Below, piece after piece: positions 17,712 through 37,273 of a DNA stretch of 37,273 bases. The stretch is from the NCBI GenBank assembly GCA_007988785.1, contig BJUU01000028.1, positions 1 to 37,273 of the forward strand, read 5' to 3'. Within the stretch, counting starts at the first letter, position 1. The number at the start of each line of letters is the position of its first letter. The position numbers and the translations under genes were made by a program. This DNA comes from Agrococcus baldri. Lineage in GTDB: Bacteria > Actinomycetota > Actinomycetes > Actinomycetales > Microbacteriaceae. A model generated the notes under the pieces. The model had not been told where the DNA came from. It saw nothing but the letters and a program-made list of their open reading frames with translations, and made no database searches.

Positions 17712-17718
17712 GAGGTTC

Positions 17719-18546: not shown

Positions 18547-18553
18547 GCCCACG

Positions 18554-18559
18554 AGCCTA
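18554..18559 (-). promoter_or_regulatory. -10 box of a leaderless promoter for xthA
   Basis: On the minus strand TAGGCT is followed by 7 nt and the ATG at 18546. Confidence 0.5.
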
Positions 18560-18573
18560 CCGATCACCGCTGA

Positions 18574-18605
18574 CGCCTCCGCCCCGAAAGGAGAGAGGCG
18601 GGCGG
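18574..18605. terminator. Possible terminator after the YihY gene
   Basis: Two alternative short stems can form: CGCCTC (18574-18579) with GAGGCG (18595-18600), or CCGCCC (18579-18584) with GGGCGG (18600-18605). The position just after the YihY stop and before the xthA promoter fits a terminator. Stems are short and no U-tract is present. Confidence 0.3.
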
Positions 18606-18620
18606 ATGCGCGGGTGCGGT

Positions 18621-19586: not shown

Positions 19587-19628
19587 CCCGACCTCCCGTC
19601 GTCGTGGCGACGCTTCGACGGCTCAGCG

Positions 19629-19634
19629 TAGTGT
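19629..19634 (+). promoter_or_regulatory. -10 box of a leaderless promoter for ptsI
   Basis: TAGTGT followed by 7 nt and the ATG at 19642; no ribosome-binding sequence between them. Confidence 0.5.
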
Positions 19635-19641
19635 TGCCACC

Positions 19642-21347: not shown

Positions 21348-21397
21348 GGCCTCGTGACGGCAGCGACCCCGCGGGTCGCTGCCTCCTCGACCTACGG
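21348..21397. repeat. REP-like palindromic element, copy C (plus orientation)
   Basis: Opens GCCTCGTGACG, has a perfect core hairpin GCAGCGACCC-CGC-GGGTCGCTGC, and ends CTCCTCGACCTACGG. The CTA near its end is the complement of the TAG stop of the convergent GTPase gene. Copies B and C face each other across about 20 bp and can pair over 13 bp at their outer ends (GTAGGTCGAGGAG with its complement), forming one large cruciform-like terminator between converging genes. Confidence 0.65.
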
Positions 21398-23020: not shown

Positions 23021-24975
23021 CGGCCGGGCCCCTGCTCGTGGTCGTCGCCCTGCTCGCCGGTGCTGCCTGCGGCCACGGCGCCGTCGCCCGCGCCGACCGC
23101 GGGCAGCGCACCGGTGCCGGGCCCGAGCTCGCGCACGTCCTCCGACTCGCCCTCGATGGGCGACTCGGCCTCGTCGTCGAGCGCCTCGGCCTCGACGACA
23201 TCGCTCGGCAGCAGCGAGCGCGAGGGCTCCTGCGGTCGGCCGACCGCCGCCATCGCCGCCTCCAGCTCGGCGGCGGCATCCCGCAGCGCGTCGCCGTCGG
23301 CCCCCGACTCCACGGGGGCGAGCAGCGCATCCCATCTGGCGGCCTCTGCGGCCATGAGCGCGTGCACGCGCGCCTCGAGGTCGTCGCGCGCCTGCGCGGC
23401 CAGGCGACGCACCGCACCCTCGCCGAAGATCGTCTCGAGCAGCTTCTGGCCGACGACCGCCGAGCCGCCGGCGATCGCGATCTCGCCGCCGGTCAGGCCG
23501 CCGGTGGAGGCGAACACCACCACCATGAGCGCCACCGTGATGACGTTGAGGCCGAGCGACATGACGCGCGCCCTCGTGCGCTTGCCGGCGGCCTGCTCGG
23601 TGATGAGCTCGATGAGGCCCTGCTGCCACTCGCGCACGAGCCGCGACGCCCGCTCGGGCAGCTCCGGCGAGGGCTGCGCCAGGTCGGCACCGCTCGTGAG
23701 CTGCCGGCCGACCGCGCTCTGGCGCACGCGCGCCCAGGCCTCGGCGGCCGCGCGGCCCGCCTCGTCGACCATCACCGCGTGCAGGCCCGACTCGATCTCG
23801 TGCTCGACCTCGATCGCGGGCGCCGGCCTGCCCTGGAACCAGGCGGTCACCCGGTCGCGGGCGCGGGAGAACCAGGATTCCACCGTGCGGAAGACGTCGG
23901 AGGTGCCGACGAAGTCCTGCCAGCGCGCCAGCACCTCGCCGCGCAGCAGCACGCCGTCGCGGGTGGCGTCGTCGACGCGCTCGGCGGCGTCGTCGTGGAT
24001 GGCGGCGATCGTGGCGCGCAGGTCCTTCGCCGTCACGAGCTGCTCGTCGCGGGCGTCGGCCACCGCGCGGGCGGTGACGCCGAGCCGCTCGACCGTGCCG
24101 GCGAGCGTGCGGCCGGCGATCCGGGCGCGCTCTGCGCGGTCGCCGGCGATGCCGGTGAGCCAGGCGCGGATGCCGGCGACCGCGGGCGCCGGCAGCATGC
24201 CGCGGCCGTCGAGCGGCGACTCGGCGACCACGAACACCGGGGCGGTGCCGAGCCCGCGCCGGGCCAGCATCTGCCGCAGGTCGGCCTCGACCTCGGCCTC
24301 GGCGCCGGGCGGCACGCGGTTCAGCACCACGCCGACCGTGATGTCGCGCGCGGCGGCGTCGTCGAGCAGCCGCCACGGCACCGCGTCGGCGTAGCGGTTG
24401 GCGGTGGTGGCGAACAGCCAGAGGTCGGCGGCCGCGAGCAGCTGGGCGGCGAGCTCACGGTTCTCGTCGGCGATCGAGTCGACATCGGGGGCGTCGAGGA
24501 TCGCCAGGTCCTGCGGCACGCGCGCGTCGGCGACCAGCACCACCGAGCCGATCTGCGCCGCATCGGGCTCCTCGCCGGCCTCGTTCGAGGGCGCCTCGCG
24601 CACGACACCGGTGACCCTGGCGAGGCCGGGCAGGATGCGCGTGGAGGCGAACCAGGCCGCGTCGACGGGGGAGTGCAGCAGGATCGGCTGCCGGGTCGTG
24701 GGGCGGATCACGCCCGTGCGGGTGACGGGGATGCCGATCAGCGCGTTCACGAGCGTCGACTTCCCGGCGCCGGTCGAGCCGCCCACGACCGCCAGCAGCG
24801 GTGCGTCGAGATTGCTCAGCCGCGGCTGGATGTAGTCGTCGATCTGCCGCACCGCCGCCCTGCGCGCGTCGCGCGCGGCATCCGCACCGCCGATCGCGAG
24901 CGGCAGCGCGACGCCGTCGAGCGCGCCCCGCAGGGCGTCGAGCCGGTCGAGCGCGGCGATCGTGGCGTCGTTCAC
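23017..24975 (-). CDS. Dynamin-like/Era-like GTPase, first of a pair
   Basis: A 652-residue protein. The GTPase domain has P-loop GGSTGAGKST (65-74), DAPDVDS at ~162 for switch II, and a degenerate G4 (NRVP at ~220 in place of NKxD), so guanine specificity is uncertain. A long helical region and a hydrophobic stretch with two short helices (around VMSLGLNVITVALMVVVFAS and the following GGEIAIAGGSAVVG) follow; the last ~90 residues are acidic and low in complexity. The GTG at 24975 is preferred over one 18 nt upstream because CAGACT lies 6 nt before it. The pair is probably translationally coupled and acts together as a heteromer. It lies 31 nt downstream of the secretion operon on the same strand. 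Confidence 0.82.
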   Translation of the reverse strand: MNDATIAALDRLDALRGALDGVALPLAIGGADAARDARRAAVRQIDDYIQPRLSNLDAPLLAVVGGSTGAGKSTLVNALIGIPVTRTGVIRPTTRQPILLHSPVDAAWFASTRILPGLARVTGVVREAPSNEAGEEPDAAQIGSVVLVADARVPQDLAILDAPDVDSIADENRELAAQLLAAADLWLFATTANRYADAVPWRLLDDAAARDITVGVVLNRVPPGAEAEVEADLRQMLARRGLGTAPVFVVAESPLDGRGMLPAPAVAGIRAWLTGIAGDRAERARIAGRTLAGTVERLGVTARAVADARDEQLVTAKDLRATIAAIHDDAAERVDDATRDGVLLRGEVLARWQDFVGTSDVFRTVESWFSRARDRVTAWFQGRPAPAIEVEHEIESGLHAVMVDEAGRAAAEAWARVRQSAVGRQLTSGADLAQPSPELPERASRLVREWQQGLIELITEQAAGKRTRARVMSLGLNVITVALMVVVFASTGGLTGGEIAIAGGSAVVGQKLLETIFGEGAVRRLAAQARDDLEARVHALMAAEAARWDALLAPVESGADGDALRDAAAELEAAMAAVGRPQEPSRSLLPSDVVEAEALDDEAESPIEGESEDVRELGPGTGALPAVGAGDGAVAAGSTGEQGDDHEQGPGR

Positions 24976-24981
24976 GCGGCT

Positions 24982-24987
24982 AGTCTG
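24982..24987 (-). promoter_or_regulatory. -10 box of a leaderless promoter for the GTPase pair
   Basis: On the minus strand CAGACT is followed by 6 nt and the GTG at 24975, consistent with the other leaderless starts, though the hexamer is less canonical. Confidence 0.4.
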
Positions 24988-25006
24988 CCCCACCGCACGC
25001 GAGAGC

Positions 25007-25537
25007 TCAGCGCACGCGCAGCGCCTGCAGCGTCAGGCTCGCCCAGCGGTCGAGCGCCGTGCGCGTCTGGGCGCGGTAGCCCGCGCCGCCGTCGGCGATC
25101 CGCCCGGGCCGCGTGAGCAGCGGATCGCGCGGCACGAGCAGCGCGTCGACGGCGATGTCGGTGCGGATGCGCGAGGGGCGTCCGAAGAGCGCCGTGCGCA
25201 CGACGATCACCCGGCCGGGCAGCTCCTCGGCGCCGATCCGCTCGAGCAGCGGGGCGAGCACGGCGTCGCCGAGCGGCGTCGCCGCGCTCACGATCGCGAT
25301 CGTGCCGCGCTCGAGCGCCGCGGCGCAGCGCTCCGGGGTCGCGCGGCCGGCGTCGTGCACGAGTCCGGGTCCGCGGCCGCGGCCCTGCTCGTCGCTCGCG
25401 AGCCTGCGGGCGAGCGGCATGGGGTCGACGGCCTCCACCGCGGGCGCCGCCTGCCCCTGCGCTGCGGCGATCGCGAGCGCCGTGAGGGTCGTCGCGCCCA
25501 CCCCGCCCGTCGTGCCGAGCACCGTCAGCGTGCTCAT
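25007..25537 (-). CDS. Degenerate MinD/ParA-like ATPase, last gene of the type VII arm
   Basis: A 176-residue protein with a MinD/ParA (SIMIBI) opening MSTLTVLGTTGGVGATTLTALAIA. The deviant Walker A motif KGGxGKT is reduced to TGGVGATT: both the signature lysine and the P-loop lysine are missing, as in CpaE/TadZ-type proteins, so ATP hydrolysis is doubtful. Later strands carry IAIVSAATPLGDAVLAPLL and DALLVPRDPLLTRPG, consistent with a shortened fold. The start at 25537 overlaps the eccC stop (ATGA), tying it to the secretion operon. A structural or positioning role in the secretion machine is inferred, not shown. Confidence 0.75.
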   Translation of the reverse strand: MSTLTVLGTTGGVGATTLTALAIAAAQGQAAPAVEAVDPMPLARRLASDEQGRGRGPGLVHDAGRATPERCAAALERGTIAIVSAATPLGDAVLAPLLERIGAEELPGRVIVVRTALFGRPSRIRTDIAVDALLVPRDPLLTRPGRIADGGAGYRAQTRTALDRWASLTLQALRVR

Positions 25538-28500
25538 CGCTGGGTCTCCTCGGGCGGCTGGGGCGCGGCCTCGGGCTGGGGGGAGGGCGCGGGCTCCTCG
25601 GCCGCGACGGCGGGCGCCGGTGCGGGCTCGACCTCCTGCAGGTTCGCGACCTGCACGACGAAGGGCGGCACGCCGCGGCGGGCGAAGCGGCCGCGTCCGG
25701 GCGGGAAGCGCTCGGGGTAGATGCGCGGCAGGATCTGCCCCTCGGCCCGGTCGCCCGAGAGCAGCAGCATCGAGCCTCCCGTGTCGCGCGTCATCTGCAT
25801 CGTCGAGCTGTAGAGCGCACGCGATGCGCCGGCGATGGGTCGCGCGATGACCAGGTGGAACTCCAGGTCGCGGGCAGCGGGCATGTGCTGCAGCAGCGGG
25901 GCCAGGGGCTCCGTGCCGCCGGCCGACACGATGTCGTAGTCGTCGACCAGCAGCACGATGCGGGGCGCGCTCGCGCGCTCTGCCGCCGAGCGGCCCGCGC
26001 GCTGCGCCAGCTCCGCGGCGATCGAGGCGGCGAGTCCCTGCGCCTGGCTGACCGACTTCGCGTGCGCGGCGAGGTAGCCGTCGGGGATGCCCTCCGGCAC
26101 GTGGCCGCGCGTGTCGATGATGGCGATCGCGAGCTCCTCCGGCGAGAAGCGCTCGACCAGCTGGTGGGCGATGAGCCGCAGCACGGTCGACTTGCCGCTC
26201 TTCGAGTCGCCCATGACGATGAGGTGCTGGTCGTCGCCCAGCAGATCCCAGCTCGCGGTCGTCATGGTGTCCTGCCGCAGGCCGAGCGGCACGGTGTCCG
26301 GCTCGTCGAACGCATCCGGGAGCGCCTCGGGGTCGAGCAGCAGAGGGAGGAGCCGGATGGGCGCGGCCGCGGGGCCGCTCCAGGATTCGCGGGTGCGGCG
26401 GCCGAGCGCCTCGAGCGCCTCGGCGACCTCCTCGTCGTCGACGAGCTCGAGCGTCGGCAGCGCGACCTGGGCGAGCGTCATGCGGTCCGTGAGCGCTCGG
26501 CCCTTCGCGTCCTTCGAGATCGTCTTCGACAGCTTGCGGTCGATGACGGAGTCGGCCGGGTCGTTGAGGTGCAGCTCGATGCGCGTGCCGAACAGCGACT
26601 GGTGGGCCATGCGCAGCTCGCTCGAGCGCGTCATCGCCAGCACGAGGTGCACACCGTGGCTCGCGGCGCGCGACATCAGCTGGGTGAAGGCGTCGTCGAG
26701 CTCGTCGAAGTCCTGCCGGAGCGCGCCGTAGCCGTCGACCAGCAGCACGATGTCGGCCGAGTCGAGGCCGGGGATCCTGCCGGCGGCGTGCATGGTGCGC
26801 AGCTGCGCCATCGAGTCGATGCCGTGCTCCTTGAACAGCTGCTCCCGGCGCGCGACCATGCCGGCGAGCTCCTCGAGCAGACGGCGGAGGCGCCCCCGGT
26901 CGGCGCGCGTCGCGACGCCGCCGACGTGCGGGAAGTGCTCGAGCCGTCGCAGGCCGCCGCCGGTGAGATCCATGCCGTAGATGGCGACCTCGCGAGGCGT
27001 CTTCGTGAGCGCGAGCGAGGTCGCGATGGTGCGCAGCAGGGTGCTGCGGCCGGAGCCCGGGGCGCCGACGATCCACAGGTGGCCGCCGGCTCGGGTGAGG
27101 TCGAGGCGCCACGGATCCTGCGCCTGCTGCTCGGGTCGGTCCTCGAGCCCGATGACCACATCCAGGGCCGTCGCGCCGGTGTCGGCGCCGTCGAGCACCT
27201 GTCCGAGGGCGAGGCGCGTCGGCAGCGGCGCGACCCAGACGGGCGCGACCGTGCGGTCGTCGCTGCGCAGCCGGTCGACGGCCTCGTCGACGAGGTGCCT
27301 GCCGGTGTCGACCGGCTGCAGGCCCGAGGCCGAGGAGCCGCCGCCGTCGGACTCCTCGTCCTCCTCGATGCCGTTGAACGTCGGCAGCGCGTACACGAGC
27401 CGGCCCGGCTCGTCGTCGTCGCTGCTGCGGCGCACGGGCTCCGAGCGGATCGGGCCGGAGACGTAGCCGGCGCGGAAGCGCTGGTACACCGAGGTGTCGA
27501 CCTTGAGGAATCCGTAGCCCGGCAGCGCGGGCAGGTGGAACGCATCCGGTGTGGAGAGCACGACCTGCGACTCGCCCTCGCTGAAGGTGCGCAGCCCGAG
27601 CCGATAGGAGAGGTAGGTGTCGAGGCCGCGCAGCTTGCCGGCCTCGATGCGCTGGCTCGAGAGCAGCAGGTGCACGCCGATCGAGCGGCCGATGCGGCCG
27701 ATCTGCAGGAACAGGTCGACGAAGTCGGGCTCGGCCGTGAGCAGCTCGCCGAACTCGTCGATGACGACGAACAGGTGCGGCATCGGCGCCATCTCGGGGT
27801 TCTCGGCCCGCATCTGGCGGTAGTGGGTGATGTTGGGCGCCGAGTCGGCGTCCTTCAGCATCTGCTGGCGCCGCACGACCTCGCCCTGCAGCGACGCCCG
27901 CGCGCGGGTGGTGAGCTGCGGGTCGTCGGCGAGGTTGTCGATCAGGCCGGCGAGATGCGGCAGGGGCGCGAAGGGCGCGAAGGCGGCGCCGCCCTTGTAG
28001 TCGACCAGGATCATGCTGAGATCCTCGGGCGGGTGCCCGATGGCGAGCGCCAGGATGAGCGTGCGCAGCATCTCCGACTTGCCCGAGCCGGTGGCGCCGA
28101 CGCAGATGCCGTGCGGGCCCATGCCCAGCTGCGCACTCTCCTTCAGGTCGAGGTGCACGGGGCGGCCGCCGTCGTCGACCGCGAAGGGCACGCGCAGGAA
28201 GTCGTTGGGCCGGCGCGGCTTCCAGATCTTGTCGGGGCGCAGGTCGTCGAGGCGCTCGAAGCCGAGCAGCTCGGTGATGTCGAAGGCCTCGACGTCCTCG
28301 GCCTCCTGGCTGCGCACGGCGCGCGAGAGGCGCATGGCCGACAGGCTCCGCGCGATCGCCTCGAAGCTGCCGCCGCTCACGCCGTCCGGGTCGAACTGCA
28401 GCCGCAGCGCCGACGGCGTGCTCGCACCGGTCGTGAGCGCGGCCCGCTCGCCCAGCTCGATGCGCACGTCGACGTCATCGGGCTCCTGCAGCCGGTCGTC

Positions 28501-29559
28501 GAGCAGGTGGATGACGGTGATGCCCAGCCCGAGCATGCCGAAGGAGCGATCGGGCACCGGCAGCGGCGCCGCGTTCTGCCCGTGCTCGTCGAGCACGACG
28601 ACCAGCCGGCTCTGCGAGCGATCCGCCGTCCCCGCGCGCCGGGCCGCCGTGGCCGCCTGCATGCGGTCGGCCAGCGAGGCGCCCAGCACGGCGACGAGCG
28701 AGCGGCCGTCCTCGGCGATGCGCCGCGCGGGCACCGGCCCGTCGAAGAGCTTGGGGTCCTGCGCGTGCGGCAGCAGGTCGAAGCCCCGCCAGTCGGCTGC
28801 CCGGTCGCGCGCGAAGGCCGCGGCGAGCTGCAGGTCGTCGGGGGAGTGGTGCGTCGCGAGCTGCAGCAGCAGCGCCCGCACGGCGGGCAGCGTCTGCTCG
28901 CGGTCGCCGATGATGGAGACCACCCCGGCGTCCCGCAGGCGCGCGCGCAGCGGCATGCCCTCGACGTTCGCGTACGTCTTGACGATCAGCTCGGCCTCGT
29001 CGACGAGGATCGGGTCGGCGGGCTCGGTCGGGCTGCTCGCGTCGGGGATCGTGATGTCGAACCACGGCACCGGCGCCGTGCCGACCCGCACTGCGAGCGC
29101 ATCCGCGTCGCCGCGGCGGCGCTCCCACAGCCGCGCCGGGTCGCGCACGATGCCGGCGAGGGCGGCCGGCTCGGGGTCGAGCAGCAGCGCCGACTCCTTC
29201 GCCTCCTGCGCGCGCTCGCGAAGCCCCTCGCGGAAGCGCTCGAGGTAGTCGAGGTACAGGCCGCGGCGGAATCGCGCCTGGCGGGCGGCTCGGCCGCGGG
29301 ACGACAGCGCGAAGCCCACACCGCCCACGACGGCGACCAGGAACATCACGCCGGCGAGCACCAGGAACAGCGGCTGGCCGTTGCGCAGCACCACCATCAT
29401 GATGACCGAGGTCATGGCCCCGACGATCGGCAGCAGCATCTGGATCGGCGGGCCCTGCTGCTCCTCGACGATGGGCGGCGGGGCTGCGAGCACCTCCTCG
29501 GGCGGCGCCTCGACGGGCGTCGTGATCCGGGTGGGCCGGTGGAACAGCTCGCGGCTCAT
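25534..29559 (-). CDS. eccC: Type VII secretion ATPase EccC (fused EccCa-EccCb)
   Basis: A 1341-residue membrane-bound FtsK/SpoIIIE motor that recognises and drives ESX substrates. Two transmembrane helices lie at ~40-58 and 62-86. Three ATPase domains follow. Domain 1 has Walker A GATGSGKS (488-495) and Walker B VVIDEF (D601-E602), fully active. Domain 2 has GAPGSGRST (832-840, R for K) and VDGYG instead of DE. Domain 3 has GDSKSGKST (1117-1125) and VDDYD. This fits the known pattern in which domain 1 hydrolyses ATP while domains 2 and 3 regulate or bind substrate. The last ~40 residues are a Pro/Glu-rich tail. It overlaps its neighbours on both sides by 4 bp. Confidence 0.96.
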   Translation of the reverse strand: MSRELFHRPTRITTPVEAPPEEVLAAPPPIVEEQQGPPIQMLLPIVGAMTSVIMMVVLRNGQPLFLVLAGVMFLVAVVGGVGFALSSRGRAARQARFRRGLYLDYLERFREGLRERAQEAKESALLLDPEPAALAGIVRDPARLWERRRGDADALAVRVGTAPVPWFDITIPDASSPTEPADPILVDEAELIVKTYANVEGMPLRARLRDAGVVSIIGDREQTLPAVRALLLQLATHHSPDDLQLAAAFARDRAADWRGFDLLPHAQDPKLFDGPVPARRIAEDGRSLVAVLGASLADRMQAATAARRAGTADRSQSRLVVVLDEHGQNAAPLPVPDRSFGMLGLGITVIHLLDDRLQEPDDVDVRIELGERAALTTGASTPSALRLQFDPDGVSGGSFEAIARSLSAMRLSRAVRSQEAEDVEAFDITELLGFERLDDLRPDKIWKPRRPNDFLRVPFAVDDGGRPVHLDLKESAQLGMGPHGICVGATGSGKSEMLRTLILALAIGHPPEDLSMILVDYKGGAAFAPFAPLPHLAGLIDNLADDPQLTTRARASLQGEVVRRQQMLKDADSAPNITHYRQMRAENPEMAPMPHLFVVIDEFGELLTAEPDFVDLFLQIGRIGRSIGVHLLLSSQRIEAGKLRGLDTYLSYRLGLRTFSEGESQVVLSTPDAFHLPALPGYGFLKVDTSVYQRFRAGYVSGPIRSEPVRRSSDDDEPGRLVYALPTFNGIEEDEESDGGGSSASGLQPVDTGRHLVDEAVDRLRSDDRTVAPVWVAPLPTRLALGQVLDGADTGATALDVVIGLEDRPEQQAQDPWRLDLTRAGGHLWIVGAPGSGRSTLLRTIATSLALTKTPREVAIYGMDLTGGGLRRLEHFPHVGGVATRADRGRLRRLLEELAGMVARREQLFKEHGIDSMAQLRTMHAAGRIPGLDSADIVLLVDGYGALRQDFDELDDAFTQLMSRAASHGVHLVLAMTRSSELRMAHQSLFGTRIELHLNDPADSVIDRKLSKTISKDAKGRALTDRMTLAQVALPTLELVDDEEVAEALEALGRRTRESWSGPAAAPIRLLPLLLDPEALPDAFDEPDTVPLGLRQDTMTTASWDLLGDDQHLIVMGDSKSGKSTVLRLIAHQLVERFSPEELAIAIIDTRGHVPEGIPDGYLAAHAKSVSQAQGLAASIAAELAQRAGRSAAERASAPRIVLLVDDYDIVSAGGTEPLAPLLQHMPAARDLEFHLVIARPIAGASRALYSSTMQMTRDTGGSMLLLSGDRAEGQILPRIYPERFPPGRGRFARRGVPPFVVQVANLQEVEPAPAPAVAAEEPAPSPQPEAAPQPPEETQR

Positions 29560-30332
29560 GCGCTCCTCCCCACCAGGCGCGCGGTGCCCGAGGACTCGGA
29601 TGCGCGGCGCACCGTCGAGGCCGCGAGCCGCAGCAGCGCGAGCGCGCTCGCGTCGCGCAGGCGGCCGAGCGGCACGTGGCGGGAGCGCGCGTGCGCGCGG
29701 TCGTGCGGCAGCAGCACCGTCGGCACGGGCATGAGGCCCGCGAGCGTGGGGATGGACGGATGCGCGGTGCCGTCGACGTCGACGAGCGCGATCGCGGCGA
29801 GGCAGTCGCCCGTCGACTCGACCTGCGCCGCGAGGTCGATGGCTCGCTGGGCGTCGTCGCGGTGGGCGCGCGCGACGATCACCGCGACGTGCGAGAGGGC
29901 GATGATCTCCTGCGTGCGCTCACGCGTCGGCGCTCCCCAGTCGCTGATCGAGAGCGCGCTGGCGCGCTGGCGCTCGCTGGCCGCCGCCCACCAGGCGCTC
30001 GTCGAGGCCTGCTCGCCGACGAGCGAGAGCAGCCGGATGCCTGCGGGAGGCTCGGGGTCGGCGGCGTCGCCGTAGCGGTCGCCCAGCGCCCCCGCGTGCC
30101 AGGCGGCTGGCACGCCGCGTCCGTCCGCGTCGACGAGCAGCACGTGCCCCTCGCGGCGCGCGGCGATGACGGCGGCCGCCCGGCCGGCGACGATCGAGGT
30201 GCCGACGCCGCCCGCGGTGCCGAGCACGGCGATCCGGCGCGAGATCGGCAGGGGCGCGGCGATGGCGGCGTCGAGCTCGGCGAGCTCGTGCATGCCTCTG
30301 GCCGTCGCGGCGTGCAGCAGCATGCGCATCAT
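29556..30332 (-). CDS. Degenerate MinD-like ATPase between eccD and eccC
   Basis: A 258-residue protein of the MinD/ParA fold: RRIAVLGTAGGVGTSIVAG (residues 32-50), then HVLLVDADGRG (63-73) for the A' strand, and VAVIVARAHRDDAQRAIDL later. The Walker A motif again lacks both lysines (GGVGTSI), so it is a second degenerate family member in the same operon as the one at 25007. Residues 1-30 are a short lead. The chosen ATG at 30332 overlaps the eccD stop; ATG codons at 30329 and 30323 are alternatives. ESX loci of mycobacteria carry an unrelated ParA-like protein (EspI), so a role in assembly or placement is plausible but unproven. Confidence 0.78.
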   Translation of the reverse strand: MMRMLLHAATARGMHELAELDAAIAAPLPISRRIAVLGTAGGVGTSIVAGRAAAVIAARREGHVLLVDADGRGVPAAWHAGALGDRYGDAADPEPPAGIRLLSLVGEQASTSAWWAAASERQRASALSISDWGAPTRERTQEIIALSHVAVIVARAHRDDAQRAIDLAAQVESTGDCLAAIALVDVDGTAHPSIPTLAGLMPVPTVLLPHDRAHARSRHVPLGRLRDASALALLRLAASTVRRASESSGTARLVGRSA

Positions 30333-31633
30333 CCGAAGGTCTCCGTGAGATCGGCGAGCACGCCGAGCTTGCCCAGCAGGAGCGTGATGGCCGCCAGCAC
30401 CGCGAGGAACTCGAGCACGCCCGCCCAGCGGCGACGGCGGGCGAGCGCGGGTGCCGAGGGGCGCAGCGCGAGCACCGCGACCACGAGGAGCGCCGCGGCC
30501 GCGGCGACAGCGGGCCGCCACGCTCCCTCGAGCATCGGCGAGGTCGCGATCCACAGGATGACCGGCACGGTCGCGGCCAGCAGCACGACGAGCCGCTGCG
30601 GTCCGAGCGGCAGCATGCGGGCGCGCAGCGCGACGATCGCGGCGATCACGAGGGCGAGCAGCACCGCCCAGGTGCTGGCCTCCAGCACCAGCACCGTCCC
30701 TGCCGCGGCTGCCGTCGCGGCGGCCGCGGCCACCATCGCGGTGAGCCCGAGGAATGCGGTCTCGATCGAGGTGCGCACATCGGCTCGCGAGACGCGGCCG
30801 CCCGCGACCACTCGGTCGTCGAACGAGGTCAGGCCGCTGGTCGACAGCGCGATGCCGGGCAGCAGGCCCAGCAGCACCGCGCTCACCAGCCCCACGACGG
30901 CGGCGACGTCGCTCGGGTGCATGCCGAGCGACTGCAGGATCCCGGCTGCTCCGCAGGCGGCGACGACGAGGCCCGTGCCGAGCGCGATCCCGCGGGAGCC
31001 GAAGCCGATCTGCGCGACGAGCCCGATGACGAGCGCGATGGCGGCGGCCGAGGCGAGGGCTCCCTGCGCCCAGTGCCCGTCGCCGGCCAGGGCTGCGGCG
31101 GCCGCTCGCTCGGCGACGCCTGCGGCGACGGCCGTCGCCGCGATGGCGGCCGCGGTGCGGTCCGTGCGGGCGAGCAGCACGGCTGCGGCCACCAGCACCA
31201 TCGCGAGCATGCCGGCGCCCCAGGGGGCGAGCCATCCGCCGTCGCCGGCGGCAGTGGTGCCGAGCGAGCTCAGCACGAGCAGCGGCAGCGCGGCGGCGGT
31301 CGCGGCGTGCCTCGTCGACCATCGGTTCGGCCGCGAGGCGGTGACCTCGCCGACGGCCTCGGTGACCTCGGCGACATCCGGCGGCGGCGGCGCCTCGTCG
31401 ACGGCGACGACGCGCAGCCTGGTGCCGTGCCCGACGGCCTGCTCGTCGAGGGTGAGGGATGCGTCGATCTGCTCGCCGGTGAGCGTGGTCAGCACGACCG
31501 GGCGCGCTCCGGCGGCCGGCTCCTCGAGCAGCTCGAGGATCTCGGGCATGAGGGCCTCGACCGGCTCGTCGTCGGGCACGACGATGTCGGCGCGGCGCGT
31601 GCTGCCCTGGATGGAGAGTCGGGTGTATTCCAC
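30329..31633 (-). CDS. eccD: Type VII secretion integral membrane protein EccD
   Basis: A 434-residue membrane core component of ESX secretion. An N-terminal ubiquitin-like (YukD) domain (~1-80: YTRLSIQGSTRRADIVVPDDEPV, then GTRLRVVAVDEA) is followed by about 11 hydrophobic helices, as in mycobacterial EccD, which forms a dimer that walls the channel. GTG at 31633 is the start, one nucleotide after the stop of the small TM gene. The gene lies in the fixed order FHA protein, small TM protein, eccD, MinD-like, eccC. Identity rests on domain order and context rather than strict sequence motifs. Confidence 0.9.
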   Translation of the reverse strand: MEYTRLSIQGSTRRADIVVPDDEPVEALMPEILELLEEPAAGARPVVLTTLTGEQIDASLTLDEQAVGHGTRLRVVAVDEAPPPPDVAEVTEAVGEVTASRPNRWSTRHAATAAALPLLVLSSLGTTAAGDGGWLAPWGAGMLAMVLVAAAVLLARTDRTAAAIAATAVAAGVAERAAAAALAGDGHWAQGALASAAAIALVIGLVAQIGFGSRGIALGTGLVVAACGAAGILQSLGMHPSDVAAVVGLVSAVLLGLLPGIALSTSGLTSFDDRVVAGGRVSRADVRTSIETAFLGLTAMVAAAAATAAAAGTVLVLEASTWAVLLALVIAAIVALRARMLPLGPQRLVVLLAATVPVILWIATSPMLEGAWRPAVAAAAALLVVAVLALRPSAPALARRRRWAGVLEFLAVLAAITLLLGKLGVLADLTETFG

Positions 31634-31634
31634 G

Positions 31635-32144
31635 TCAGTCCTGCTCCTCGACGACCTGCAGGGTCGTCGGATCGATCGTGATGCCGGAGGTCGGGTCGGT
31701 GTAGTAGCCCGTCTGGGGGTCGAAGAACCAGTCGAGCCTCGGGTCGATCGTGCGGCCCTCGAGGTCGGTCGCCAGCATCGTCTCCCGGTCGACGCGGAAG
31801 CCGGTCTGCGGGTCGATGAGGTCGTCGGATGCCGGGTCGACGAGGAACCCGGTCGCCTCGTCCTCCGGCATCTCGTCGGTCGGCTGGATCGGGTTCGAGG
31901 CGAGCGCCTCCTGGAAGGCGGTGATCGCAGCCTCGTTGCGGTTGCTCTCGAGCAGGTCGAGCACGAACGAGGTGCCGATGCAGCCGATGCACACGACGGC
32001 AGCCAGGACGATCGAGCCGGTCACCCGCCCGACGTTGGTCTGCACGGCGCGGCGCTCGCGCTGCCTGCCGAAGACGAATGCGGATGCGAGGCGCGTCCTG
32101 TGCGACTTGGTCGCCTCGAGCAGGTTGCGGTCGATGTCGGTCAC
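31635..32144 (-). CDS. One-TM protein with acidic DPxTG-like repeats, type VII operon
   Basis: A 169-residue protein. The short basic N-terminus (LLEATKSHRTRLASAFVFGRQRERR) recalls the cytoplasmic head of EccB, and one helix follows (~41-65). The outside part is acidic and holds repeated DP-turns: VDPASDDLID, DPQTGFRVD, DPQTGYYTD, DPTSGITID (residues ~102-158). These could be calcium-binding or extended turns; that is inference. The large R-domains of a true EccB (usually ~450+ residues in total) are absent, so it may replace or shorten EccB. GTG at 32144 overlaps the FHA gene stop (GTGA). Confidence 0.75.
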   Translation of the reverse strand: MTDIDRNLLEATKSHRTRLASAFVFGRQRERRAVQTNVGRVTGSIVLAAVVCIGCIGTSFVLDLLESNRNEAAITAFQEALASNPIQPTDEMPEDEATGFLVDPASDDLIDPQTGFRVDRETMLATDLEGRTIDPRLDWFFDPQTGYYTDPTSGITIDPTTLQVVEEQD

Positions 32145-32947
32145 GCGGCACCCCCTGGAGTCGCGGTCCTGCGCGCCCGCGTGCCGAGCACGAAGCGCCG
32201 GTCGCCGAGCTCGAGCGTCTGCCCGACGGTCAGGCGCGCTCGCGAACCGGCGGCCACCTCCGTGGCGCGGCCGTCAGCGCCGAGGATGCGCGTGCCGTTC
32301 GTGGACGACAGGTCGGTCACGTCCACGCCCGCATCGCCCGGCGCGGCGGCCGGCTCGAGCAGCGCATGCGACTTCGACATCGACCTCGAGACATCCGTGA
32401 ACCCGAGCAGCGCCCGCTCCTCGCCGTCGCCGAGATCCTGCGGCACGCGGCCGAGCACCGTCGCGCGCTGCACCGGCAGCCAGGTCTGGTCGTCGGCGAG
32501 CAGACCGAGGCCGTCGAGCTTCGCGGCGAACTGCTGCCAAGGGGCTGGGGCGCTCGCGAGCGCACCGGCTCCGCTCGGGGCGAGCGCCAGCGGGTCCCTG
32601 CCGGCGCGCAGGTCGTAGACGGCGGCGCGCCCGAGCGTCGGCAGGCCGTCGGCGCCGATGCGCCGCAGGCCGAGGGCAGCGGATGCCGGGGTCGCCCCCG
32701 TGCGGACGGTCGAGAGCGCGAGCACGCCGGCCGCCAGCAGCAGGCCGACGAGCGCGGGCACCGCGAGGCCCGCGCCGCGGAAGCCGCACAGCCAACCCGC
32801 GCCCGTGAGCACGGCGACGACCAGCAGCACCGTGGCGGCGTCGAGCGCGAGCGCGGCGGCCCGGCGCGAGGCTGACGCCGGCATCAGCTGCGCGGTCGCC
32901 TCGCCGCGTGCCGCAGCACGCGAGCCGGCGTCGACGGTGGTCGCCAT
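32141..32947 (-). CDS. RDD-FHA domain protein, first gene of the type VII arm
   Basis: A 268-residue protein. Residues ~28-80 form an RDD-like membrane region with two helices (SRRAAALALDAATVLLVVAVL, then GLAVPALVGLLLAAGVLAL). The C-terminal ~160-255 is a forkhead-associated domain that binds phosphothreonine: GR (166-167), SRSMSKSHA with S191 and H194, and SSTNGT with N217. FHA proteins are linked to several ESX systems and to Ser/Thr kinases. ATG at 32947 has an excellent GGGAGGAA site. It is the promoter-proximal gene of the minus arm. Its phospho-partner is unknown; no kinase gene is within the window. Confidence 0.87.
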   Translation of the reverse strand: MATTVDAGSRAAARGEATAQLMPASASRRAAALALDAATVLLVVAVLTGAGWLCGFRGAGLAVPALVGLLLAAGVLALSTVRTGATPASAALGLRRIGADGLPTLGRAAVYDLRAGRDPLALAPSGAGALASAPAPWQQFAAKLDGLGLLADDQTWLPVQRATVLGRVPQDLGDGEERALLGFTDVSRSMSKSHALLEPAAAPGDAGVDVTDLSSTNGTRILGADGRATEVAAGSRARLTVGQTLELGDRRFVLGTRARRTATPGGAA

Positions 32948-33000
32948 CGTTCCTCCCGGTCGCAGAGCTCAGCGCGCCCGCTCATGGGCGCGGCCCCCTT

Positions 33001-33006
33001 ACGCTA
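33001..33006 (-). promoter_or_regulatory. -10 box for the minus-strand type VII arm
   Basis: On the minus strand TAGCGT precedes the ATG at 32947 by about 53 nt. Unlike most starts here, this message would have a real leader with a strong GGGAGGAA ribosome-binding site. The -35 is unclear. Confidence 0.4.
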
Positions 33007-33009
33007 GCG

Positions 33010-33120
33010 GCCCCAACTGGAGAGATCCCACTCCTGGGGCGCTCGCGGCTGGGGGAGTTCTCCCCATCGCGCTCCCAGTCGCAACTTGCGAGACTGTCGT
33101 CGGCCGGTCACCGAACCGGC
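33010..33120. promoter_or_regulatory. Cluster of inverted repeats between the two type VII arms
   Basis: Four dyads in ~110 bp: GCCCCA...TGGGGC (33010-33040, with inner GGAG/CTCC), GGGGAG-TT-CTCCCC (33052-33065), TCGCAA-C-TTGCGA (33079-33091) and GCCGGT-CACCGA-ACCGGC (33103-33120). The region holds both divergent promoters and no gene, so these are good candidates for regulator sites or leader hairpins. The plus promoter itself could not be assigned. Confidence 0.45.
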
Positions 33121-33144
33121 GAGCCATCGAACCAGGAGGATCCC

Positions 33145-33501
33145 ATGGTAGGCACCTTCAACATGACGCAGAACGCGCTGCTCGATCTGGGCAAGCGTTC
33201 CGAGACCGAGTCTGAGGATCTGGGCACGCTCGTGCGCCAGCTCGTCGAGGCTGCAGAGCCGCTGCAGAACACCTTCAACGGGCCCGCGAAGGGCACGTTC
33301 AACAGCTTCAAGGGCAAGACCGACATGATCGCCTCGCAGCTGAACGGCGCATTGGGCGCCATCGTGGGCTCGATCTCCGGCCAGAACATGTCCTTCGTGC
33401 AGGGCGCCGAGGACGGCGCGGACACGCACAAGTCGACCGAGGGCGCGACCGACTTCAGCGACGAGACCTTCCTCCAGCGCATCGCCGGCCACAACGCCTG
33501 A
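33145..33501 (+). CDS. ESAT-6-like (WXG100-type) secreted protein with FxG turn
   Basis: A 118-residue protein of two predicted helices joined by a turn. The family's WxG is replaced by F44-N-G46, with the usual downstream small residue and aromatic kept (GPAKGTF). Such small proteins dimerise and leave through the ESX machine. The C-terminus lacks a clear YxxxD/E signal; FVQGAEDGAD is the closest. ATG at 33145 follows an AGGAGGA site; the reading frame runs upstream to 32908 but that part overlaps the intergenic repeats. First gene of the plus arm. Confidence 0.85.
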   Translation: MVGTFNMTQNALLDLGKRSETESEDLGTLVRQLVEAAEPLQNTFNGPAKGTFNSFKGKTDMIASQLNGALGAIVGSISGQNMSFVQGAEDGADTHKSTEGATDFSDETFLQRIAGHNA

Positions 33502-33533
33502 ACCGGCACGAACACACGAGCAAAGGACACGAC

Positions 33534-33860
33534 ATGATCGGCGAAGGCCAGTACGAGAACAAGCAGGACAAGAACGACTACTCCGTCGGTGCGTCGCAGT
33601 CGACGCAGGACAACTTCGAGCGGGTCGCCGGCCAGCTCGAGTCGGCGCTCGACCGTCGCGACAAGGACGTGAAGGCTGCGATGGCCGAGTACCAGGCCGA
33701 CGGCGTCAGCGACGAGTACGCGGCGATGGAGCAGCAGTGGAACACGGCGGGCGCCGCGGTTCGCACCGTCATCAAGAGCATCCGCTCGTCGCTCGCCGAG
33801 AACGACGACGTCGCGCTGGCCACCCTCAAGAAGGCCAAGTCCTTCGTTCCTGGCGCCTGA
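33534..33860 (+). CDS. ESAT-6-like type VII substrate, partner protein
   Basis: A 108-residue all-alpha protein, charged and rich in Gln, Asp and Lys at its head (YENKQDKNDYSVGASQSTQDNFERVAG). Its turn is near QQWNTAG (W69-x-x), a loose WxG. It resembles the group annotated as pore-forming ESAT-6 family proteins in actinobacteria, recalled from memory and not checked. It follows the first Esx-like gene by 32 nt and probably forms a heterodimer with it. A GGACACGAC stretch precedes the ATG with only a weak ribosome-binding site. Confidence 0.82.
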   Translation: MIGEGQYENKQDKNDYSVGASQSTQDNFERVAGQLESALDRRDKDVKAAMAEYQADGVSDEYAAMEQQWNTAGAAVRTVIKSIRSSLAENDDVALATLKKAKSFVPGA

Positions 33861-33862
33861 GC

Positions 33863-34885
33863 GTGCAGTACGTCCACCCCGTCGCCGACGAGTGGACCGA
33901 CCAGTACGCCCTCTACGCTCCGTCGTCGAGGCAGGTGCTGCGGTCGGCACCCGTCGGGGCGTTCCTCGACTACTGCCGTGAGGAGGGGCTCCGGCCCGTC
34001 CTCCTCACGGGTGAGCACGCATCCGTCAGCCCCCTCCTGTCGCTCGCGATGGGTCAGGCGGGCGGTCACTGGGCGATGCGTACCGCCGACGGCACCGTCT
34101 ACGACGCGGTCTCGGGCTACCGCATCACGGCGTTCGAAGACCTGTGGCTCGACGGCTCGACCGATCGTCCGCGGCACCCGGCGTTCGAGCAGACGTCTCG
34201 GACCGACACGATCGGCGTGCTCACCTTCGACGTCTACGTGCACCATTCGGCCGTCGCGGAGACGCGCATCGGTCCGGTCGTCGAGCACATGCTCGCCGGC
34301 CTCGGTGGCGCGACGCCGACCGCGTGGGGCCACGTCGAGCCCCTCGCGCGGCGCTGGAGCATCGACGATCTGACGATGGCGCTGCGACCCGAGATGCCGC
34401 AGTCGAGCGCGATCGGCGTCGCCGCGACCCGTGGCGGGTACAGCGAGCTCACGGTCGGCCGCACGCGGCGCGGGCTGCTGGAGCGCGTGCGCGGTGGCGT
34501 GCCGGTCGGCTCCTTCGATCCGGACGACGCCGAGACGCGCGCTCGCGCCTGGGGAACGCTCGAGTCGCTCAGCGAGCGGTTCCGCCCCACGGTCGCGTTC
34601 GCGAGCTACGCAGAGACCGAGCCCGGCGGGGCGCGACCGGCGGCGAAGAACCCTGAGCAGCCGCTCGGCGTCTACCTCGGACCCCGGGCCGTGCGCGACC
34701 TGGCGCTCGACTTCGACACGCTGCAGGCGCAGTACGACCTCGTGCGACTCGGCCGTGACCGCGTGCCCGGTGCACTGCTGCGGCTGTCGGGCAGCGACCC
34801 GCTCTGGCACCAGCTGGTCGCCTTCTCGTTCGACCTCGACAGGGAACGGCTCGTCGAGGCCGTCCGCCCTGAGATCGGAGGATGA
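33863..34885 (+). CDS. Type VII locus accessory protein, DUF6177-like
   Basis: A 340-residue soluble protein with no signal peptide or TM helix. Opening VQYVHPVADEWTDQYALYAPSSRQV, then LRPVLLTGEHASVSPLLSLAM and GGHWAMRTADGTVYDAVSGYRI resemble the family I recall as DUF6177, found beside actinobacterial WXG100 genes; the assignment is from memory. A role as substrate chaperone (the job of EspG in mycobacteria) is an attractive inference from size and position, without sequence proof. GTG at 33863 lies 2 nt after the previous stop; an upstream open frame in other genes is not used. Its stop precedes the next ATG by 1 nt. Confidence 0.72.
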   Translation: MQYVHPVADEWTDQYALYAPSSRQVLRSAPVGAFLDYCREEGLRPVLLTGEHASVSPLLSLAMGQAGGHWAMRTADGTVYDAVSGYRITAFEDLWLDGSTDRPRHPAFEQTSRTDTIGVLTFDVYVHHSAVAETRIGPVVEHMLAGLGGATPTAWGHVEPLARRWSIDDLTMALRPEMPQSSAIGVAATRGGYSELTVGRTRRGLLERVRGGVPVGSFDPDDAETRARAWGTLESLSERFRPTVAFASYAETEPGGARPAAKNPEQPLGVYLGPRAVRDLALDFDTLQAQYDLVRLGRDRVPGALLRLSGSDPLWHQLVAFSFDLDRERLVEAVRPEIGG

Positions 34886-34886
34886 C

Positions 34887-35222
34887 ATGCCCACGGAGCT
34901 CGTGATGACGAGTGCGACGCACCCGACCCGCGGTGCCGTCGTCGACGCGGTGCAGGACCTGCACCCGCAGGGCTACCTCGCCGACTACCGCGGCGGCGAG
35001 ATCGTGCAGGTGATCGACGCCGACGGCCGGGGGCTGCTGACGCTGTTCCCGCCGCGCCCGATCGAAGCGATCGAGGAGGCCTCGCGCACCGTGCGGGGCG
35101 AGGTTCGGTCGCTCGACATGTGGACCGACATGACCATTCCCTATGGCGACCCGACGCAGGGCCGCGCGCTCGCCGAGGCGATCGCCGTGCGTGCCGGCGG
35201 CCGCATCCACGAGCGGAACTGA
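34887..35222 (+). CDS. Small conserved-context protein of the type VII arm (111 aa)
   Basis: A 111-residue protein I do not recognise. It reads as alternating strands and helices: ELVMTSATHPTRGAVVDAVQDL, then GEIVQVIDADGRGLLTLFPPRPIE, with a conserved-looking WTDMTIPYGDPTQGRALAEAIA end. The layout suggests a small alpha/beta domain, perhaps a partner of the preceding 340-aa protein, because the two genes are 1 nt apart. GAGGATGAC upstream overlaps the preceding stop and may serve as ribosome-binding site. Not an Esx-type hairpin protein. Confidence 0.65.
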   Translation: MPTELVMTSATHPTRGAVVDAVQDLHPQGYLADYRGGEIVQVIDADGRGLLTLFPPRPIEAIEEASRTVRGEVRSLDMWTDMTIPYGDPTQGRALAEAIAVRAGGRIHERN

Positions 35223-35239
35223 GAGCAGGAGCGAGAGCG

Positions 35240-35605
35240 ATGTCGAAGTGGAAGATCGATCCTGCCGGCGTGCAGACCGTGCTGGACAACGTGAAGCCTG
35301 ACAAGGAGAGCCTGGAGAAGGCGCTGACCGAGGAGAAGTTCCAAGGCGTCTACGACGGCCTCGACTGGGGCTCGATCATCACCGACGCAGTGCCGACCGC
35401 AGTCTCGAACGTGCTGAACGACCAGGGCACGAACCTGAAGAACATCAGCAACCGCATCAACGCCGGGGTGATCGGCGTCGCGAACGCGACGATCGCCTAC
35501 AACAACGGCCAGGAGGAGATGGTGGGCAACTTCCAGACCAACATGGTCTCCTCCGCCGAGGACGGCGACTTCTCCTACTTCGAAGAGCACGGATACAAGG
35601 GCTAG
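35240..35605 (+). CDS. Small helical ESX-associated protein (DUF6507-like)
   Basis: A 121-residue protein of Esx-like size: MSKWKIDPAGVQTVLDNV, a LDWGSII turn (W43-G44), then helices ending AEDGDFSYFEEHG. The N-terminal WxIDPAGV is like the family I recall as DUF6507 beside WXG proteins (from memory). It may be the small partner of the large substrate that starts 2 nt after its stop, as small helical proteins often pair with LXG-type toxins. A GAGCAGGAGCGAGAG stretch provides the ribosome-binding site. Confidence 0.75.
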   Translation: MSKWKIDPAGVQTVLDNVKPDKESLEKALTEEKFQGVYDGLDWGSIITDAVPTAVSNVLNDQGTNLKNISNRINAGVIGVANATIAYNNGQEEMVGNFQTNMVSSAEDGDFSYFEEHGYKG

Positions 35606-35607
35606 AC

Positions 35608-37273
35608 ATGGGTGGCAACGACACGCAGGCGGTAGCGGAGCAGGGCACGAGCAGCGACGGGCTGATCAACCCCTATCTCTTCCCGTGCCGATCCTGGAAC
35701 CTCAACACCGAGAAGATCACCGGTGCTGCCGATTCGGCCAAGACCATGGGATCGACGGTGAAGTCCAAGATGGACGACATCGTGACGACGTGGGGCGGCC
35801 TGCCCGCGAGCTACGAGGGTCCTGAGCAGCAGCAGGTCTACGATCTGATGGATCCGGCCAAGACCTCGGCTGCCGACCTCGACACCGTGCTGACGAAGGT
35901 CCACGGATATCTCGACACCTACGCGAGCGCGCTCGACGGCATCAAGGGCGAGCTCGAGACGTGCGAGGACGAGGCGCTGGAGTTCCGCAACCGCGTCAAG
36001 GACGGCGTGATGGTCGACCGCTCCGAGTCGAACGACGCGAACTTCGGCGACCACTGGAACAACGCGTGGGAGTGGACAGGCCTCACGGACGAGGAACAGA
36101 TCCTCGTCCCGTGGAACGAGGACAGCGACACCGTCGACGAGAACAAGCGGCACCTGGAGAAGTACGCGGGCATCCTGGAGAAGATCTCGACGGCCGCGAC
36201 CCAGTGCGCCAACGACATCAACGGCCTGCTCGAGAACATGTGCGTCGCGACCGAGGAGGCAATCCCCGCCGAGGCATTCACCAATCCGCAGCAGCCGATG
36301 CCGTGGGGCTCGCCCGTCGAGGAGGACCGCAACTGCCCCGAGTCGGTCGGGCACGGCGTGTACTCGTTCGGCGCGGGCACGGTCGAGGGCCTCGCGTCGC
36401 TCATCGGGCGCGACCCCACCACGGGTGAGTGGAGCTGGGGCGCCGCGGGCAACGCGTGGGGCGGCACGGTCAACGTGCTCGGCTCGATCGTCGTCACGGC
36501 GGTCGTGCCCCCGGTGCTCAAGCCCTTCATCTACGCGAGCGACGACCCGGTATCGAACTGGATCACCGAGCGCGACGAGGTCACGACGACCGTCGTGACG
36601 GGCCTGATCGGATTCGACTACCAGGCGCACAAGGCCGGCGAGGACGGCTGGCACGCCTGGAAGGAGGACGGCGTCGCGGCGTTCACGGAGTCGCTGCTGA
36701 ACGTGGGCACCTTCTTCATCCCCGGCGCCGGCCAGGTCGGTGCGGGACTCAAGGCCGGCAGCGCCGGCTCGCGGCTCGCGCGCATCTCGGCGGTCGCGGC
36801 AGACTTCGCGATCCCTGGCGGCTCGTGGGCGGTCAAGGGCGGCGTGCGCGTGGTCGAGGCGCTCTCGACGACGATCCGCATCGGCGACGACGTGCCGCTC
36901 GGCCGTCCGAACCTGCTGCCCGGTGGCACGCAGAGCCTGCTCGACGCAGTCGACGACGTCCCCGCGGCGCCGCCGACGCGGGGCGTCACGAACGACGTGT
37001 TCCCGAACCAGGGCACGCCCGATGTCCAGCCGTCGCCGGCGACCAGCAGCACGTCGCCGACGAACGGCACGTCGCCCTCGGTGACGCCGGATGCTGGCGA
37101 CGCCAGCCCTTCATCGTCGGGCACGCAGCGCCCTGGCGGCTCGGAGACGCCCGCGCCAGCTGCGGATGCATCGCCGTCCTCCGGTGGCCAGCGCCCCGGC
37201 GGCTCGGAGTCGCCGGCGTCGGACGCCGCGCCGAGCTCCGGTGGCCAGCGCCCGGGCGGTTCGCAGTCGCCGG
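35608..37273 (+). CDS. Large type VII substrate, probable polymorphic toxin, C-terminus outside window
   Basis: At least 555 residues; the frame is open to the right edge. Residues ~30-130 are an Esx-like helical hairpin with a W62-G-G turn (TTWGGLPASYEGPEQQQVY). Residues ~170-220 are more helices. Residues ~245-420 are Gly/Ala-rich and hydrophobic (VLGSIVVTAVVPPVL, SLLNVGTFFIPGAGQVGAG), like the pre-toxin region of other LXG/WXG toxins. From ~450 on is a Pro/Ser/Thr/Gly stalk with repeats. The effector domain and any immunity gene should follow beyond 37273. Toxin activity is inferred from architecture alone. The start is 2 nt after the previous stop. Confidence 0.8.
   Translation, partial: MGGNDTQAVAEQGTSSDGLINPYLFPCRSWNLNTEKITGAADSAKTMGSTVKSKMDDIVTTWGGLPASYEGPEQQQVYDLMDPAKTSAADLDTVLTKVHGYLDTYASALDGIKGELETCEDEALEFRNRVKDGVMVDRSESNDANFGDHWNNAWEWTGLTDEEQILVPWNEDSDTVDENKRHLEKYAGILEKISTAATQCANDINGLLENMCVATEEAIPAEAFTNPQQPMPWGSPVEEDRNCPESVGHGVYSFGAGTVEGLASLIGRDPTTGEWSWGAAGNAWGGTVNVLGSIVVTAVVPPVLKPFIYASDDPVSNWITERDEVTTTVVTGLIGFDYQAHKAGEDGWHAWKEDGVAAFTESLLNVGTFFIPGAGQVGAGLKAGSAGSRLARISAVAADFAIPGGSWAVKGGVRVVEALSTTIRIGDDVPLGRPNLLPGGTQSLLDAVDDVPAAPPTRGVTNDVFPNQGTPDVQPSPATSSTSPTNGTSPSVTPDAGDASPSSSGTQRPGGSETPAPAADASPSSGGQRPGGSESPASDAAPSSGGQRPGGSQSP
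37105..37273 (+). repeat. Tandem repeats encoding a QRPGGSE-type stalk
   Basis: Units of 22 and 19 residues start at residues 500, 522 and 541, each with a core SSGGQRPGGSESP (first unit SSSGTQRPGGSETP). Synonymous codons differ between units, so the protein sequence rather than DNA copying seems to be conserved. The array continues past the window edge, so copy number is unknown. Confidence 0.85.

Follow-up and report, generated by a model that had tools for sequence, protein, structure and literature searches.

The stretch of DNA analysed here (the window) is the 37,273 nucleotides of contig BJUU01000028.1 of Agrococcus baldri, a complete contig (C28) of a 48-contig draft genome with a completeness of 99.83%. 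Its right-hand third carries a type VII secretion system (T7SS) island that reaches the contig end and whose membrane core is probably a minimal one. The island comprises two divergent arms, one encoding the EccC motor, EccD and a small protein with a single transmembrane (TM) segment, and the other encoding Esx-like proteins, accessory proteins and a large substrate. The features are as follows, where fractions give the share of 45 related loci, described below, that carry a counterpart.

25002..25006, no strand: left border of the island; by blastn, collinearity with the sister species G049 ends at 25001 (window 23116-25001 against L160 14754-12864)
25007..25537, minus strand: second MinD-like protein (MinD2); P-loop GTTGGVGAT without the Walker lysine; no Pfam match, own hidden Markov model (HMM) 32/45
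25534..29559, minus strand: EccC ATPase, 1341 residues; two N-terminal TM segments by hydropathy, no FHA domain; TIGR03924 and TIGR03925 above cut-off; 44/45
29556..30332, minus strand: first MinD-like protein (MinD1); P-loop GTAGGVGTS without the Walker lysine; weak ParA/CbiA matches and alignment; 42/45
30329..31633, minus strand: EccD; N-terminal ubiquitin-like domain and TM domain; PF08817, PF19053, TIGR03920 barely above cut-off; 44/45
31635..32144, minus strand: putative mini-EccB; EccB-like cytoplasmic helix and one TM segment (residues ~1-65), followed by a DPxTG/OCRE-like tail where EccB has its periplasmic domain; OCRE PF17780 above cut-off; 44/45
32141..32947, minus strand: FHA-RDD membrane protein; RDD and FHA both below the Pfam cut-off; 38/45
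32948..33144, no strand: divergent intergenic region separating the arms (gene calls)
33145..33501, plus strand: Esx1, WXG100-like; TIGR03930 17.2 bits, below cut-off; 43/45
33534..33860, plus strand: Esx2, ESAT6_3-like; NF035935 96.1 bits, cut-off 100; 43/45
33863..34885, plus strand: DUF6177 accessory protein; predicted immunity-protein-like fold; 39/45
34887..35222, plus strand: 111-residue accessory protein; no Pfam family; 32/45
35240..35605, plus strand: DUF6507 small protein, directly 5' of the substrate gene; PF20117 E 4.9e-15; 40/45
35608..37273, plus strand: large substrate, N-terminal part; helical EsxA/PPE-like domain, then a Pro/Ser/Gly-rich linker; the gene is cut by the contig end

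Gene calls and Pfam/NCBIfam scans bear out the gene content and coordinates of the two arms given in a first-pass annotation of the window. That annotation also took the minus arm to be one functional unit from its gene overlaps; four of the five junctions are 4-bp overlaps, with EccD and the one-TM gene 1 bp apart, making this a reasonable view for which the conservation of the arm across the 45 loci is the better argument. EccC scores 735.8 bits to TIGR03924 (cut-off 509.15) and 617.6 bits to TIGR03925 (cut-off 346.55), with no FHA domain among the Pfam matches listed, and EccD scores 95.9 bits to TIGR03920 against a cut-off of 94.95. The FHA domain of the FHA-RDD protein exceeds the Pfam cut-off in three scanned relatives (L100, L102 and L034). 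A scan of positions 32900-33200 found neither a sigma-70-like promoter nor a terminator.

No full-length match to EccB (PF05108) was found anywhere in the A. baldri genome, all contigs of which were searched. Because EccB was absent from the 14 named control genomes, scans of the family and of the phylum were taken as positive controls instead, and EccB was found in 12 of 150 Microbacteriaceae genomes. EccC exceeded its cut-off in 24 of these 150 genomes and fell into two score tiers: the 12 genomes of the upper tier, with a best score of at least 740 bits, are exactly the 12 that have EccB, and none of the 12 in the lower tier (627-684 bits, A. baldri included) has it. One genome (G019) carries a locus of each kind, and A. 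baldri has a single EccC above cut-off.

The mycosin protease follows a similar distribution. All 13 EccB positions listed have a match to the mycosin model no more than 8 kb away, scoring 219-255 bits, and none of the mycosin matches listed is closer than 25 kb to a lower-tier EccC; the A. baldri genome contains two weak mycosin-model matches, the better at E 1.2e-8. Because TIGR03921 proved insensitive, reaching its cut-off in 0/150 genomes, EccB-bearing ones included, a MycP HMM was built in-house from three loci, and this matched neither the window nor the other 44 loci of the class. Subtilases that match the mycosin model occur in 136 of the 150 family genomes (105 above 200 bits in the list), most of them away from EccB. 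EccE (PF11203) gave no match in the A. baldri genome among the 31 of 71 first-look candidates that were scored; across the family it is matched in 24 of 150 genomes (above cut-off in 15), never at more than 35 bits, and none of the matches listed is near a lower-tier EccC. EccE is absent from some ESX-4 systems, and the EspG chaperone is not present in all of them; no EspG appeared among the best structural matches of the DUF6177 model.

Profile comparisons indicate that the one-TM protein beside EccD is homologous to the N-terminal helix and membrane helix of EccB, and that the locus therefore has a mini-EccB rather than no EccB. The conserved part of the stub, approximately its first 65 residues, follows the pattern L-L-E, H-R-x-R-L, A-F, G, R-R and then one TM segment, and most EccBs of the family start alike, with (I/V)-E-A, R-R-R-L, A-F, G and one TM segment. 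In a 12-sequence test, an HMM of 12 full EccBs matched 10 of 12 stubs at E<0.01, near HMM positions 5-70 and N-terminus to N-terminus. Aligned with hhalign, the trimmed stub and EccB score 31.0, compared with maxima of 25.5 over 400 within-segment shuffles and 21.0 over 400 shuffles of the cytoplasmic part alone, and alignment with 46 EccBs gives an E-value of 6.9e-6 and a probability of 84.5. The family EccB HMM was also run, at a set search space of 9000, over 12340 frames of the loci collected; leaving EccB itself aside, stubs occupy the top 21 ranks, which represent 19 distinct loci since near-identical contigs repeat. When only distant EccBs were used, the top 25 comprised 18 stubs and 7 other frames. 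The best E-values of this rank test are modest, at 0.008 for the family HMM and 1.5e-4 for all EccBs. The stub profile matched 9 of 396 phylum-wide genomes, seven of them through true stubs and one (G363) through the N-terminus of a canonical EccB; the remaining match (G301) covers the TM segment only and was taken as chance.

The small protein might instead be unrelated to EccB, a new subunit replacing it, whose likeness reflects convergence on a short basic helix followed by a TM segment. The weak per-sequence scores of the stubs would fit this, as would the small one-TM proteins of no known kinship (TsdH, TseK) in other T7SS types that the accessible part of PMC11217815 describes. We consider it rather unlikely, given the shuffle controls, the rank test and the arrival of the phylum-wide scan at a genuine EccB N-terminus. 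The first-pass description of the locus as lacking EccB, EccE and mycosin thus holds for the full-length proteins, none of which was detected, and should otherwise be reworded from 'without EccB' to 'with a stub EccB'. Similarly, its 'one-TM DPxTG protein' is accurate for the window but does not describe the class, as the DPxTG tail follows the stub TM segment in only 9 of 44 stub-bearing loci, all in one sub-branch. This repeat tail (window 31635-31850; also L100-L106 and L117) scores as an OCRE domain, above cut-off in the window, L100 and L103.

The structural literature gives this homology a context. EccB3 of ESX-3 touches EccC3 and EccD3 with its tail, linker helix and TM segment, and its periplasmic domain is thought essential for oligomerization, according to the part of PMC6986878 consulted; in ESX-5, the EccB5 ectodomains build a dome that MycP5 caps and stabilizes, as set out in the available sections of PMC8131196. 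Judged from its sequences, the class has the part of EccB that binds motor and raft, but neither dome nor cap.

The same arrangement recurs widely. We collected 13 family loci by EccC score alone, 31 from a scan of named genomes with a stub alignment and six from a phylum scan, leaving 45 after removal of five repeats (L107, L108, L114, L119 and L121). The named-genome scan yielded loci from Cellulomonas, Actinotalea, Pseudactinotalea, Nesterenkonia, Curtobacterium, Compostimonas, Homoserinimonas, Frondihabitans, Leifsonia, Promicromonospora and other Microbacteriaceae, and the phylum scan gave five from one genus, taken as Streptomyces-like, and one from another family of the order. The class thus spans Microbacteriaceae, Cellulomonadaceae, Promicromonospora, Nesterenkonia and Streptomyces-like genomes, many of them soil- or plant-associated actinobacteria. 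Stub and EccD are same-strand neighbours in 44 of 44 cases, and EccB and MycP are each found in 0/45 loci, the only matches to either HMM, up to E 10, being three stub frames. The stub served as bait for 32 of the 45 loci, so the independent test lies in the 13 chosen by EccC score: stub, EccD, Esx1 and Esx2 are present in 12 (the thirteenth is cut), and EccB and MycP in none. Eighteen comparison loci were chosen for having EccB, so that their 18/18 for EccB holds by construction; the same is not true of their MycP count, which is 16 of 18 (not L145 or L147). Curtobacterium alone contributes sixteen of the 45 loci, which are therefore not independent of one another; contig ends truncate L042 and L120, and the MinD motif tally uses the first pattern per stop-to-stop frame, which makes some of its entries spurious. 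Nonetheless, recurrence of the gene set in 45 loci is not a matter of chance. One Promicromonospora locus (L130) has two DUF6177 genes.

Such recurrence also bears on whether the locus could be a decaying, functionless ESX remnant. Its presence in one of the three genomes of the genus examined would suit decay, as would two loci retained among the 45, L109 (Frondihabitans sucicola) and L123 (Curtobacterium flaccumfaciens Sample7_18), in which EccC and some other frames are interrupted, whether by decay or by sequence error. Against this, the frames of the window are intact and tightly overlapping and the gene order recurs with diverse toxin tips, and we consider a remnant very improbable.

The motor was also analysed phylogenetically. 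The EccC trees leave out the five repeats together with L109 and L123, whose EccC frames are broken, and the class forms one EccC clade in all three (support 100, 93/95 and 100/100). Its relationship to the EccB-bearing rows differs between trees. A quick 61-row tree nests the class among them (support 87-90, with long-branch warnings), a careful 28-row tree makes the class (93/95) and the EccB-bearing rows (99/97) sisters, and in a careful 35-row tree the EccB-bearing rows are not one clade, although forcing them together is not rejected (p-AU 0.439, approximately unbiased test). Forcing the class together with L045-L047 gave a p-AU of 0.044, for a grouping chosen after seeing the quick tree. 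The EccC of T. curvata in the PDB clusters with the EccB-bearing rows. The window EccC groups with rows from Cellulomonas, Actinotalea, Pseudactinotalea and Nesterenkonia in a branch of 10 rows (support 100, quick tree), and all nine visible stubs of this branch carry the DPxTG tail. In the first nucleotide-binding domain (NBD1) the motif GATGSGKSE is present in 42/42 class rows, and in NBD2 (window 26000-28000) the Walker lysine is replaced by arginine in 36 of 42 class rows and kept in 13/13 readable EccB-bearing rows. On this phylogenetic evidence the EccCs of the class stand apart from described ESX EccCs; an EccC inside a well-described subtype, which would have refuted the first-pass reading, is not what the trees show. 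The first-pass proposal of a distinct actinobacterial subtype with a reduced core is supported. A further EccC-like class is common in the family (L048-L051, from G049, G119, G023 and G051), scoring about 276-373 bits to TIGR03924; in L049 an FHA-bearing ATPase is accompanied by kinase, FHA, PP2C, RDD and transglutaminase genes nearby, L048 includes a protein with an Ig domain, and the class resembles T7SSd/e.

A more speculative prospect is that the stub is primitive rather than reduced. The class would then be the early-branching sister lineage of every ESX system, a surviving stage on the way from WXG-FtsK clusters to ESX that predates both the EccB dome and mycosin. ESX-4 has been derived from WXG-FtsK clusters via gain of eccB, eccD and mycP (PMC4791881, as far as the part consulted goes). 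We put this forward tentatively, and think it less probable than its opposite.

Comparison with sister species defines the borders of the island. Collinearity with G049 ends at window position 25001 (L160 12864) and restarts at position 3563 of contig C13 of the same assembly (L160 12826), where G049 has approximately 37 bp in place of the island. This break and restart define the island as window 25002-37273, an assembly gap, and C13:1-3562. The pair of dynamin-like GTPase genes that adjoins it (window 21392-24993) is 81-90% identical in both sister species; as it is present in G049 and G119, the same-genus genomes searched, with no T7SS beside it, it is not part of the T7SS. In two other genomes (G110, L034, and G134, L035) the same T7SS class has, in its vicinity, genes that fall into the same clusters as exonuclease-family, trpS or ptsI-like genes. 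The corresponding neighbours here lie at window 16716-21288, left of the island, and these shared neighbours suggest that the class has a favoured genomic site.

On the far side, an Endonuclea_NS_2 domain (E 5.8e-19) is encoded in the open frame C13:1-1617, which is probably the far part of the large substrate, although we have left the C28 and C13 pieces separate. Next come a 164-residue gene whose match stays below cut-off, a gene for an SseB-domain protein (E 7.5e-8) and a pair of genes with YezG-like matches. No secretion core gene was found on C13:1-3562, the gap between the two contigs remaining. The first-pass suggestion that the missing parts lie to the right of the window therefore does not survive, as a nuclease and small immunity-like genes are found there and EccB is missing genome-wide. 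The idea of a complete ESX-4-type system with EccB, EccE and MycP beyond the contig end or unlinked, for which the draft state of the assembly, the position of the locus at a contig end and the C28-C13 gap leave some room, is scarcely credible when the search that recovers EccB in 12 of 150 family genomes finds it neither in this genome nor in any of the 12 lower-tier EccC genomes, and the far side of the island holds no core gene.

Relatives give indications about the cargo. Among 15 relatives' substrates scanned, 12 carry a toxin domain above the Pfam cut-off (TNT, Endonuclea_NS_2, Ntox15, GH-E or Gln_amidase), from which export of antibacterial toxins by the system seems likely; in L102 the toxin gene is followed by an Imm35 gene. 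The end of the L039 substrate matches a XopAD-family model far under cut-off, and the L139 substrate was assigned by position. The N-terminal domain of the substrate is predicted to form long helical hairpins, EsxA/PPE-like though not decisively. Variable toxin tips and immunity-like genes fit interbacterial toxins, and the cargo of the window system is most likely an antibacterial nuclease, with the small genes downstream giving immunity. YezG belongs with EsaG. The available text of PMC9484751 offers a parallel in EsaD/EsaG of Staphylococcus. The predicted structure of DUF6177 is confident (predicted local distance difference test score, pLDDT, 89.3), with BPSL2088 and Imm52-type immunity proteins as its best matches; as DUF6177 accompanies differing toxins, a role as adaptor or chaperone seems likelier than one in specific immunity.

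In relation to known systems, the island most resembles T7SSa/ESX-4 in its EccC without FHA, its EccD with a ubiquitin-like domain, its Esx-like pair and its EccB-like N-terminal helix and TM segment. It differs in its separate EccC clade and in that no EccB periplasmic domain, mycosin or EccE was found, and it adds the FHA-RDD protein, two MinD-like proteins, DUF6177, DUF6507 and a polymorphic toxin. The accessible part of PMC11217815 describes types T7SSc to T7SSj, none of them there with EccD or a stub EccB. Like the island, T7SSd (the only actinobacterial type among them and thus the other non-ESX type in Actinomycetota) and T7SSe have a small one-TM protein in the cluster (TsdH, TseH, TseK), a likeness by description only, and T7SSe likewise has a separate FHA protein. 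Both, however, have a kinase, an Ig-like protein (TsdI/TseI) and an FHA-bearing ATPase, with no EccD described there; T7SSd in particular (kinase TsdD, Ig-like TsdI, FHA-bearing TsdC) has no ubiquitin-like protein, whereas the island EccD has a ubiquitin-like domain, and neither of the T7SSd marks, kinase or Ig domain, was found among the island proteins scanned. At the cargo end the island is like T7SSb of the EsaD/EsaG type, with a polymorphic nuclease toxin, small partner genes and immunity-like genes downstream, but T7SSb EssC has N-terminal FHA domains, which the island EccC lacks, and the ubiquitin-like domain is here fused into EccD. We recognised no published description of the class by title or abstract, in a search that left subscription papers and some preprints outside, and the words DUF6177 and DUF6507 were not found in the related papers searched for them.

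Taken together, we read the island, with a probability of roughly three in four, as a secretion system related to T7SSa whose membrane core is minimal, made of the EccC motor, EccD and a stub EccB consisting only of a cytoplasmic helix and one membrane helix. This model has neither a periplasmic EccB dome nor a mycosin cap, and EccE is not detected. The stub would hold EccC and EccD together in the way of the EccB N-terminus in ESX-3, and cargo would exit without a dome-and-protease chamber, a structure that may be dispensable in a monoderm cell. It is plausible that the large substrate is secreted with Esx1, Esx2 and DUF6507 as partners, that DUF6177 and the 111-residue protein serve as adaptor or chaperone, and that the FHA-RDD protein and the two MinD-like proteins without the Walker lysine have a regulatory or scaffolding role.

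Several observations weigh against this model. PF05108 is reached by only 2 of 18 stubs, weakly (best E 0.061), a search of the PDB with the stub profile turned up no EccB chain, and the presence of the stub in the 32 loci for which it was bait is no test. A protease encoded elsewhere may serve the system, as mycosin-model subtilases are common in the family. Esx1 is a weak family member against the TIGR03930 cut-off of 44.85, and Esx2 of the window falls just short of a cut-off that the L032 protein passes at 127.3 bits. MinD2, FHA, DUF6177 and the 111-residue protein are not universal in the class, three of the 15 substrates scanned have no toxin domain (L039, L130 and L139), and the YezG-like matches on C13 lie below the Pfam cut-off (E 0.0013 and 0.017).

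Structures of ESX-3 and ESX-5 give the EccB dome and the mycosin cap central roles in assembly. A natural system with the EccB anchor alone would separate the membrane core from the dome, making the role of the dome testable in monoderms, and would add a probable route of interbacterial toxin delivery in Micrococcales and Streptomyces-like genomes. If the stub is indeed primitive, then EccC, EccD and the membrane helix of EccB would by themselves make a working type VII channel, and the one-TM proteins of other T7SS types may be counterparts of the stub. As a primitive sister of ESX, the class would bear on how type VII secretion was built up step by step.

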